From NCBI RefSeq assembly GCF_029502005.1, contig NZ_JAMQOT010000002.1, positions 558,001-622,000 of the forward strand: DNA of 64,000 nt, written 5' to 3'. A program made the translations under genes and the position numbers. A model generated the notes under the pieces. It was not told where the DNA came from. It did no database searches and saw only the letters and a list, made by a program, of their open reading frames with translations. This DNA comes from Natrinema salsiterrestre. GTDB taxonomy: Archaea > Halobacteriota > Halobacteria > Halobacteriales > Natrialbaceae. Shown in pieces: positions 21,281 to 53,822 of this stretch (position 1 is its first letter; each line of letters starts with the position of its first letter).

Positions 21281-21652
21281 TCAGTCGTGCTTGAACGACC
21301 GCTGTCCCGTAAACGCCATCGCGGCATCGACCTTTTTCTCGTCGGGTTCGCTCGCTCCGCTCGCTCGCCCTCCTCGAAAAATCTCGACCAAAAAACCGCT
21401 CGCTCACTCCGTTCGCTCACGGCCGTTCCACTCTCGCCCTCGAGTTCAGTCGTGCTTGAACGACCGCTGTCCCGTAAACGCCATCGCGGCATCGACCTTT
21501 TTCTCGTCGGGTTCGCTCGCTCCGCTCACTCACCCTCCTCGAAAAATCTCGACCAAAAAACCGCTCGCTCACTCCGTTCGCTCACGGCCGTTCCACTCTC
21601 GCCCTCGAGTTCAGTCGTGCTTGAACGACCGCTGTCCCGTAAACGCCATCGC
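21281..21652 (-). repeat. 165-bp tandem repeat (2.25 copies) carrying the 3' end of the purine gene
   Basis: Units start at 21281 and 21446, with a 42-bp partial third copy at 21611-21652 that is the genuine end of the purN-AICAR transformylase gene. The two full units differ at only two bases. Each begins (minus-strand reading) with the last 13-14 codons and the TGA of that gene (TGQRSFKHD-stop). About 123 bp follow, with the haloarchaeal motif GAGCGAACGGAGTGAGCG and a poly-T tract on the minus strand (GCGGTTTTTTGG). The period is 55 codons exactly. The poly-T tract may act as a terminator after each copied gene end. Confidence 0.85.
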
Positions 21653-40758: not shown

Positions 40759-40969
40759 TGGCCGGAAGCGGACTCCGAGCAACGCGAGGAGTCCGCGATC
40801 CGGGGGAGGGCAGGCCGTCACCCAAAACTGACCGCGAGCGAACGAAGTGAGCGAGCGGGCCGACGACCGATGTGGAAGGCGCTCTCGAGCGCCTGGAACG
40901 GAGGGAGGAGTGCTTTTGATCGAAATTTTGCCGAGGGCCAGCTCTGCTGGCCCGCAGAGCAAAATTTCG
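40759..40969 (-). repeat. dispersed 3'-end repeat with covarying hairpin, copy A
   Basis: This 211-bp element abuts the stop codon of tfs (40970-40972) and shares most of its length with copy B at 52202-52412. Read on the minus strand it begins with a hairpin: CGAAATTTTGC pairs with GCAAAATTTCG over 11 bp, and an inner GGGCCAGC/GCTGGCCC stem of 8 bp closes a 3-nt loop. It continues ATCAAAAGCACTCCTCC, then CGCTCACTTCGTTCGCTCGC, and ends near GGAGTCCGCTTCCGGCCA. The hairpin followed by A/T-rich and pyrimidine tracts could terminate transcription from tfs, or mature into a small RNA. Confidence 0.8.
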
Positions 40970-41278
40970 TTAGTTGTCGTCCTCGCGCCACTTGTGCTCG
41001 CACTCGGTGCAAATGAAAAAGCGGGTCTCGGACTCGTCGGCCGAGCGGATCTGTTGCATGTACCAGTGGGCGCGGTCGTTGCCGCACTCGGGGCAGATGG
41101 CGTCGGTCTCGGGAAGGGACGTCTCGCCGGAGGACTCGATGATCTCGCCGACTTCCTGATCGTCGGTGACGGTGTACTGGGCCGCATCGCCTTTCGGCTC
41201 CGTGTAGCCGCAGCTGCCACACTCCCAGACGCCGTCCTCGGCTTTCATCATCGAACCGCATTCGTCGCAGAATTCCAT
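40970..41278 (-). CDS. tfs: transcription factor S
   Basis: The 102-residue protein has two zinc ribbons: CDEC/CGSCG near residues 4-24 and CPEC/CTEC near 62-94. Between the second pairs lies RSADESETRFFIC, which holds the Asp-Glu dipeptide that stimulates RNA cleavage by stalled archaeal RNA polymerase. The stop codon directly adjoins a structured 3' repeat. It lies downstream of the DUF5789 gene, 87 nt away on the same strand. Confidence 0.93.
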   Translation of the reverse strand: MEFCDECGSMMKAEDGVWECGSCGYTEPKGDAAQYTVTDDQEVGEIIESSGETSLPETDAICPECGNDRAHWYMQQIRSADESETRFFICTECEHKWREDDN

Positions 41279-52201: not shown

Positions 52202-52412
52202 TGGCCGGGAGCGGGCTCCGAGCACTGCGAGGTGCCCGCGACCCGGGGAAGGGCAGGCAGTTGCCCAGTAACGGACCGCGAGTGAGCGAAGCGAACGAGC
52301 GGGCCGACGACTGACCTGGAGCGAACGAAGTGAGCGGAAGGGAAGGAGGAGTGCTTTTGATCGAAATTTTGCCGAGGGCGCGGCTTCGCCGCGCCCGCAG
52401 CGCAAAATTTCG
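52202..52412 (-). repeat. dispersed 3'-end repeat with covarying hairpin, copy B
   Basis: This 211-bp element sits 3 nt after the stop of the geranylgeranyl reductase gene (52416-52418, minus strand) and aligns with copy A (40759-40969). It begins with CGAAATTTTGC/GCAAAATTTCG (11 bp), and its inner stem is GGGCGCGGC/GCCGCGCCC (9 bp), closed by a 3-nt loop. The inner stem differs from copy A's GGGCCAGC/GCTGGCCC but is again perfectly complementary. The end toward 52202 shares TGGCCGGGAGCGGG and ACCCGGGGAAGGGCAGGC with copy A. The 144-bp stretch up to 52057 holds only a promoter area. Confidence 0.8.
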
Positions 52413-52415
52413 GTT

Positions 52416-53822
52416 CTAGTACTTGGGCTCCGCCCCGGTCGTCTCGTAGACCTTCTCCATCAGTTCGTCGCGGCGGTCCTGCCAGCCCGCGAGGCCCTCC
52501 GGACTCGTCGGATAGTTCTCGTAGTGGGAGAGCAGTTCGTCGGCCCGGCGCTTGGTCTGGTAGAGGTTCCAGATGGTCCCCCAGTGGCCGCGGCTCTTGA
52601 CCAGCGCCTCGAGTTTGAGCTTGAGTCCGATGTCCGTGCTGCCGGAGTAGAGCGCCTCGGCGAGCTTGTCGCCGGGCATCGCGGCGAGTAGCCCCATCAG
52701 ATCGTCGACGTCGACGGCCGTCGAGAGGATGTTGTAGACGTCCAGCGCGGCGTAGCGCGCGCCGAAGTGGTCCATCACCTTCTCGTTGTACTCCCAGAGG
52801 GTCTCCTCGCCGTAGTCGCCGGTCTCGAGGGCCTCGATGGCGCGCTCGGCGGCGTACTTGCCGCCGTAGGCGGCGCCGGCGATGCCGCCGCCGGTCGTCG
52901 GGTTGACGTGGCCCGCGGCGTCGCCGATGGCCATGTAGCCCGGATGCACGGCGGAGTCGTAGGGTCGCCGGGTCGGCAGCGCCGCGCCGAGTTTGTCCTC
53001 GACCTCCGCGCCGTCGAACTCGGGGCGGTTCTCGAGGTCGCGCTTGAGGTCGTCGACGAGCTGCATCGGTTCCTCCGTCATCTGGAAACCGAGGCCGGCG
53101 TTGATCTCGGTGTCGGTCCGCGGGAAGTACCAGAGGTAGCCCGCGGCCCGCTCGGTGGGCTTGAAGACGAGCGCGTCGTCCCACTCGACGGGCTCCTCGA
53201 CGTGAACGATCTCGCGGTAGGCCGAACAGAAGTGGCTGTAGTCGACGTTCGTGTCGAACGTCGAGTCCGAAAAGTCGACGTTGTCCTGCAGGACGGAGAG
53301 CGAGCCCGCGGCGTCGATGACGATGTCCGTCTCGTAGGTCAGCGGATCGCCCTTCCGGATCGCGTCGACGCCCGTGACGCGGCCGTCGTCGGCCTGGACG
53401 ACGTTTTTCACGACCGTATCGTAGTGAAACTCGACGCCGACGTCCTCCGCGCCGTCGATGATCCGCCGGCCGTACTCCCAGCGGTCGATGACGGCGAGCT
53501 CGCCCGGGACCGGAATCTCGAGGACGGTGTCCTCCTGTGGAATCTCGAAGCGGCCGTGATCGACGCCCGTGTTGGTAAAGGCCGGCTCGAGTTTGGACTT
53601 CGGAATCGCCTCGGGGAAGGCGTCGGCACCCTTCAGTGCGTCCCCGCAAGCGATGTGGCCCGCCTCCTCCTCGTCTTTCCGCTCGAGGATGACGACGTCG
53701 TACCCCTCGCGGGCGATGGTCGCTGCGGCGTAGCACCCTGCGGTTCCGGCGCCGACGACGACCGCGTCCGGCGACTTGGTCCCGGTTGTCGCGGCGGCGG
53801 CCGACTGTTCCTGCGTACTCAT
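52416..53822 (-). CDS. geranylgeranyl reductase family FAD enzyme
   Basis: The start is ATG 53820-53822 (MSTQEQSAAAATTGTKSPD); the open frame beyond it is a different gene's antisense. The 468-residue protein has the FAD-binding VVVGAGTAGCYAAATIA, a dinucleotide-binding ILERKDEEEAGH, GDAAGHVNPTTGGGIAGAAY and the C-terminal helical region. Such enzymes saturate the geranylgeranyl chains of archaeal lipids or other isoprenoids. The acidic N-terminal tail is halophile-typical. The gene ends at repeat copy B, a possible terminator. Confidence 0.85.
   Translation of the reverse strand: MSTQEQSAAAATTGTKSPDAVVVGAGTAGCYAAATIAREGYDVVILERKDEEEAGHIACGDALKGADAFPEAIPKSKLEPAFTNTGVDHGRFEIPQEDTVLEIPVPGELAVIDRWEYGRRIIDGAEDVGVEFHYDTVVKNVVQADDGRVTGVDAIRKGDPLTYETDIVIDAAGSLSVLQDNVDFSDSTFDTNVDYSHFCSAYREIVHVEEPVEWDDALVFKPTERAAGYLWYFPRTDTEINAGLGFQMTEEPMQLVDDLKRDLENRPEFDGAEVEDKLGAALPTRRPYDSAVHPGYMAIGDAAGHVNPTTGGGIAGAAYGGKYAAERAIEALETGDYGEETLWEYNEKVMDHFGARYAALDVYNILSTAVDVDDLMGLLAAMPGDKLAEALYSGSTDIGLKLKLEALVKSRGHWGTIWNLYQTKRRADELLSHYENYPTSPEGLAGWQDRRDELMEKVYETTGAEPKY

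Follow-up and report, generated by a model that had tools for sequence, protein, structure and literature searches.

An old multi-copy hairpin element at the 3' ends of haloarchaeal genes, a candidate bidirectional terminator

The intergenic palindromic repeats of enterobacteria, among them REP/BIME and ERIC (IRU), include some that affect termination or mRNA stability. REP/BIME consist of units of about 35 nt, often in alternating arrays, and are accompanied by a RAYT transposase. Integration at the 3' ends of genes or tRNAs is known from integrases and casposons. Archaeal terminators and repeated intergenic elements are little known. The PATEs of Haloquadratum walsbyi are derived from IS605-type transposons and differ in position between strains (PMC3119063). 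T stretches have been shown in vivo to end transcription in Haloferax volcanii, where a hairpin gave partial termination (PMC7237163).

The window, i.e., the whole stretch of 64,000 nucleotides of Natrinema salsiterrestre DNA that was analysed, holds two copies of a palindromic repeat (Table 1). An earlier note on this DNA had placed two 211-bp elements against the stop codons of tfs and of a geranylgeranyl reductase gene, and these coordinates are correct: the gap is 0 nt to the TAA of tfs (40970-40972, minus strand) and 3 nt to the TAG of the reductase gene (52416-52418). Read in the orientation of their host genes (minus strand), both copies start with CGAAATTTTGC. In copy 1 a T4 tract follows 5 nt past the stop codon within hairpin 1 and is mirrored on the opposite strand. 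The two copies had been described as sharing their ends, the motif CGAACGAAGTGAGCG and a hairpin, with a different middle. They are indeed related, but the likeness is wider than that, because 81% identity runs across all 211 bp. The motif itself does not stand as a shared feature, since its positions are not homologous: copy 1 has it in hairpin 3 (40839-40853), copy 2 in the region of the variable hairpin 2 (52322-52336). The motif represents a type of hairpin frequent in these elements and not their defining feature.

Table 1. Positions of the repeat elements, their hairpins and the associated gene-end copies in the window.
Feature	Position	Strand	Remarks
Element copy 1 (full form)	40759..40969	-	directly behind the tfs (transcription factor S) stop codon
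Hairpin 1 (H1), copy 1	40921..40969	-	11-bp outer arms CGAAATTTTGC / GCAAAATTTCG
Conserved linker ATCAAAAGCACTCCTCCCTCC, copy 1	40900..40920	-	second T4 tract (plus strand)
Hairpin 2 (H2), copy 1	40877..40894	-	sequence and length vary among copies
Hairpin 3 (H3), copy 1	40832..40859	-	contains motif CGAACGAAGTGAGCG; tandem G-A mismatches possible on the plus strand
Hairpin 4 (H4), copy 1	40762..40803	-	optional module, absent from short forms
Element copy 2	52202..52412	-	3 nt behind the geranylgeranyl reductase stop codon
Hairpin 1, copy 2	52362..52412	-	
Form-B short element, first unit	21493..21610	+	behind the purH stop codon (21611-21613)
Form-B short element, second tandem unit	21328..21445	+	antisense behind purH
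Exact 41-bp copy of the purH 3' end	21446..21486	-	ends at the stop codon; between the form-B units
Further copy of the purH 3' end	21281..21321	-	behind the second form-B unit

About 25 copies, full or partial, are present in the genome of N. salsiterrestre. Nucleotide searching gave 37 matching pieces there, and a covariance model (R1, built from 22 copies) gave 41 matches, which correspond to 25 distinct elements when reverse matches of the palindrome are left out. Similarity between the copies within the genome peaks at about 86%. In a sample of the same genus all 24 other genomes have matches, and in an order-wide sample matches occur in 93 of 146 genomes and 33 of 56 genera. Where a genome has several replicons the copies are located on the main one; eight plasmid records matched. 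Phage records had no match to the element, and a viral carrier was rejected on that ground. A covariance-model search of Rfam 15 matched no known structured RNA family, and a search of the open-licence literature by motif and by concept found no description of the element. The earlier view of a dispersed repeat without a visible transposase frame is thus borne out, and the search of this genome and of other haloarchaea, which had been proposed alongside it, yielded many further copies.

Alignment of the copies reveals four hairpins (H1-H4) with the conserved stretches AT(C/G/T)AAAAGCACTCCTCC, CA(C/G)(A/G)TC(A/G)GTCGTCGGCC and GCCTGCCCTCCCC between them; the invariant unpaired stretches include GCACTCCTCC and GTCGTCGGCC. 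Short forms terminate behind H3. Across 104 aligned copies, 96.2% of the paired cells hold standard pairs, compared with 82.7% in shuffles that keep the relatedness among copies, and 503 cells changed on both sides, compared with 131. The covariation score is 0.305; shuffling lowers it to 0.097 and sliding to 0.02-0.04. Fitting of the alignment to the model biases these counts towards the structure, but the margin is still large. Chance and low complexity are excluded as the source of the likeness by this covariation far above the controls and by the best whole-element match of the covariance model (E = 1e-61, two of the top matches belonging to the training set of the model). One copy (L022) has the inner part of H1 in inverted orientation between the H1 arms. 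In some species, and not in others, the 3' arm of H1 is broken by about 54 inserted bp that contain two hairpins and the motif GGACCTCGCGGGA; at six loci (L027, L043, L047, L050, L146 and L147) the insert lies behind the first H1 arm.

The position of the element relative to genes is narrow. A survey of five genomes (four of the genus and G153, with genes called by a simple codon model) gave 72 elements with an intact left end, 68 of which begin at -4 to +5 nt relative to a stop codon end, in strong agreement with the proposed tie to gene 3' ends, and the same position is seen in genomes of two other haloarchaeal families. In another genome (G049) the 3' end of a tRNA-Ser gene coincides exactly with the start of one copy, which together with the starts at stop codons suggests that the common factor is transcript ends and not translation. 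Host genes end in TAA (44), TAG (18) or TGA (6), i.e., in TAA or TAG in 62 of 68 cases, whereas among other genes TGA is the commonest stop (114, or 55%, with 52 TAA and 41 TAG; P = 2e-12, uncorrected for relatedness). Counted once per gene family, the host stops are 23 TAA, nine TAG and three TGA. Highly expressed genes may prefer TAA in any case, and this could account for part of the bias.

The neighbouring gene is convergent in 45 cases and codirectional in 36, and a terminator purely for convergent genes is therefore rejected. A small number of copies are flanked by divergent genes, as behind the promoter region of eS6. At one locus, observed in three species (L028 1700-1830, L192 and L178), the element is found not behind a stop codon but upstream of a divergent gene, some 40 nt from its start; we take this gene to resemble ribosomal protein eS6. 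At three other loci (L348 1290-1500; L222 1235-1440; L223, minus strand, 1256-1456 in reverse coordinates) a tRNA gene (Leu, Leu and Gly, respectively) is separated from the element by a cassette of about 95-105 bp. This cassette is followed by a copy of 20-22 nt of the tRNA 3' end, past which the element begins.

The sites of the element are old. The tfs stop codon is directly followed by the element, or by a form still recognisable as such, in 26 of the 29 species of the genus, one of the three species counted without it being unreadable with the C-terminal pattern used; none of these three has an obvious T tract instead. Behind uL16 the element or its relic is present in Natrinema, Haloterrigena, Natrialba, Natronococcus, Natronorubrum, Halobiforma, Halopiger, Salinadaptatus and Halovivax, and each of 19 host gene families recurs in two or more of the five genomes surveyed. 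These hosts are mostly housekeeping genes, which we take to include tfs, uL16, aIF1A, PAN, the large subunit of DNA polymerase D, GyrB, thermosome, EngB and mevalonate decarboxylase. The genes shared across species and genera indicate that the element did not move recently. Outside the family, four of 34 hosts are clear orthologues of hosts inside it (tfs, EngB, thermosome and an HD protein). The proposal that the repeat moved or was copied as a unit and then settled finds no support as an account of a recent event, given the age of the sites and a likeness of about 86% at most within the genome. Recent transposition is likewise rejected by the lack of near-identical copies, terminal inverted repeats and flanking direct repeats.

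Element identity is 0.77 at orthologous sites, 0.74 at different sites of the same genome and 0.72 at different sites of different genomes. Between two close species with a mean coding identity of 0.95, the element is 0.89 and its downstream flank 0.83 identical. The copies of these two species behind PAN, EngB and mevalonate decarboxylase differ by whole hairpins in which both arms are changed. Those behind PAN differ only at the tip of H3 and in the stretch up to H4 (ACCCTACGGGT versus GGCCTTCGGCC), and behind EngB the entire H1 is swapped (TAG-AAC to TAA), with hardly any change in H4 and the flank. Differences in blocks the size of a hairpin at orthologous sites suggest an exchange among resident copies.

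In 96 of the 104 aligned copies T4 lies among the first 13 nt, and in 92 the linker contains AAAA; the pairs of T4 display almost no change on both sides, while adjoining pairs of the arms vary. A T tract thus stands at the putative transcript end and is mirrored on the opposite strand, as expected of a bidirectional terminator. Among uL16 genes that lack the element, 31 of 46 have TTTT within 100 nt (6.7 expected), and relics behind uL16 that have lost the rest of the element keep TTTT within 20 nt in nine of ten cases. These T tracts, together with the termination at T stretches in Haloferax volcanii, are the principal, if indirect, evidence from which we infer that the element terminates transcription. 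T4 in the 5' arm of H1, just past the stop codon or tRNA end, would provide the U-tract for termination by the archaeal RNA polymerase. On the opposite strand the palindrome provides T4 again, and there a second T4 comes after hairpins 2 to 4; these tracts would halt antisense read-through before it enters the gene, and neighbouring genes would be insulated in both directions. Blocks of hairpins may be swapped among copies by ectopic gene conversion or template switching, which would keep the copies alike without transposition. Against termination it has to be considered that T4 is short for an archaeal terminator, and the mixture of convergent and codirectional neighbours implies that a bidirectional function is not always required. 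If the element is a terminator, transcripts should end at or just past T4 of H1 and antisense transcripts at CTTTTGATC.

The observed position, conservation of sites, covariation, block replacement and constancy of T4 lead us to favour, tentatively and from sequence comparison, an ancient multi-copy 3'-end element that is vertically inherited at stable sites and most likely acts as a bidirectional terminator or insulator, its copies swapping blocks. Its multiple copies, modular and palindromic build and lack of a coding frame would also suit a non-autonomous mobile element of the MITE, PATE or REP kind, inserted behind stop codons mostly long ago and now largely immobile. Small inserts nested within hairpin 1 in some species point in this direction, as do the copies of host gene 3' ends that flank form B (see below), which insertion would leave behind. 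PATEs of Haloquadratum are a precedent for transposase-free palindromic repeats without target duplication (PMC3119063). The element resembles them in having palindromes near its termini (hairpins 1 and 4) and neither terminal inverted repeats nor flanking direct repeats, but the strain-specific insertion of PATEs has no counterpart in its sites, which are common to species and genera. Repeated palindromes in intergenic positions behind genes are also typical of REP/BIME; the unit here is single and measures about 210 bp. A MITE should have terminal inverted repeats, whereas the element ends in CGAANTTTTGC and CCGGCCA, neither of which is the inverted counterpart of the other. Flanking direct repeats scored a mean of 8.7 at 95 standard elements, compared with 8.6 in the control, and hence indicate no target site duplication; decayed copies of the gene 3' end behind standard elements were found at none of 68 loci (P = 0.96). 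With the shared sites, the absence of near-identical copies in the standard form, the location on main replicons, no phage match and only eight matching plasmid records, we regard a mobile element as rather unlikely, and note that an old mobile origin is compatible with a function at 3' ends.

The remaining alternatives concern the RNA in which the hairpins would act. A regulatory element in the 3' UTR of the mRNA, serving stability, processing or a shared binding protein, would agree with the location flush with the stops of conserved, mostly housekeeping genes and with the invariant unpaired stretches. However, tRNA 3' ends also precede the element, and the gene strand shows no preference for G-U pairs (49 G-U versus 76 A-C, one invariant doubtful pair being left out). 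When each cluster is counted once, G-U and A-C on the gene strand number 18 and 12 in H1, six and 20 in H3, and 17 and 34 in H4. H1 thus has no strand preference, while H3 and H4 together favour G-U on the opposite strand by 54 to 23, a bias that fits an RNA of the opposite strand or pairing at the DNA level better than a plain 3' UTR structure. We consider the 3' UTR element improbable. A structured RNA transcribed from the strand opposite to the gene, either antisense or stand-alone non-coding, with its 3' end at the stop codon, would accommodate this tolerance of G-U in H3 and H4 as well as the tandem G-A mismatches of hairpin 3 on that strand and the slightly stabler predicted fold (z of -4.5, versus -4.2 on the gene strand). 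It is nevertheless improbable in our judgement, as it has no match in Rfam, the neighbour is convergent in only about half of the cases, and a TATA-like signal lies upstream in two of 52 cases, compared with one of 52 control stretches, with no peak of A+T. A promoter of its own on the opposite strand was rejected for the same lack of signal.

A related short form, form B, has H1-like arms and H3 in common with the standard element, and its T tracts are longer. Behind purH (minus strand) positions 21281-21610 are filled by two tandem form-B units of 118 bp, and after each unit come 41 bp that repeat the purH 3' end exactly, up to and including the stop codon. Arrangements of this kind recur at certain genes (purH and at least three others) in other species and families (L367, L370, L372, L384, L390, L396, L379 and L394). 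Copies of the gene end flank form B at seven of ten places in this genome and at 14 of 28 places in other genomes. In ten pairs of a gene end and its copy, 31 codon differences are synonymous and 19 are not, eight of the latter stemming from one frame-shifted copy; the differences are mostly synonymous in most pairs. It is possible, if unlikely, that forms A and B belong to one haloarchaeal 3'-end cassette system that recognises, replaces or duplicates gene 3' ends, in which form A would lie flush behind stops or tRNA ends, and form B antisense with a distal copy of the host 3' end including the stop codon. Copies of the uL16 3' end occur without any element at three loci (L323 from 2531 onward, in Halorientalis salina, L251 and L329), where they follow spacers of about 30-40 bp; at L323 spacer and copy form a tandem repeat.

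The repeat family offers a natural set of variants for testing transcript ends and the insulation of neighbouring genes in haloarchaea. Its value lies in the recurrence at the same gene ends across haloarchaeal genera, the strong covariation and the swaps of hairpins between copies. The gene-end copy of form B further raises the question of how such elements meet gene ends.

Among the known systems, the element resembles REP/BIME and ERIC in being multi-copy, intergenic, palindromic and typically located 3' of genes. Unlike these it is archaeal, has some 210 bp and four different hairpins, begins no more than a few nt from the stop codon, and sits at host genes that are conserved across genera. 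With PATEs and SMRs it shares the haloarchaeal hosts, the lack of a transposase, the near-terminal palindromes and the absence of target duplication, but in contrast to PATEs it is found at the same sites in different genera. Form B and the cassettes near tRNA genes leave a copy of the gene 3' end, as do elements that integrate at 3' ends; by contrast, they are only about 120 bp long and have no integrase, and the standard form lacks the duplication. Haloarchaeal terminators likewise have a T stretch behind the gene, with hairpins at some termination sites, but whereas those are short local signals (PMC7237163), the element is long, repeated and covarying, and present in many copies.
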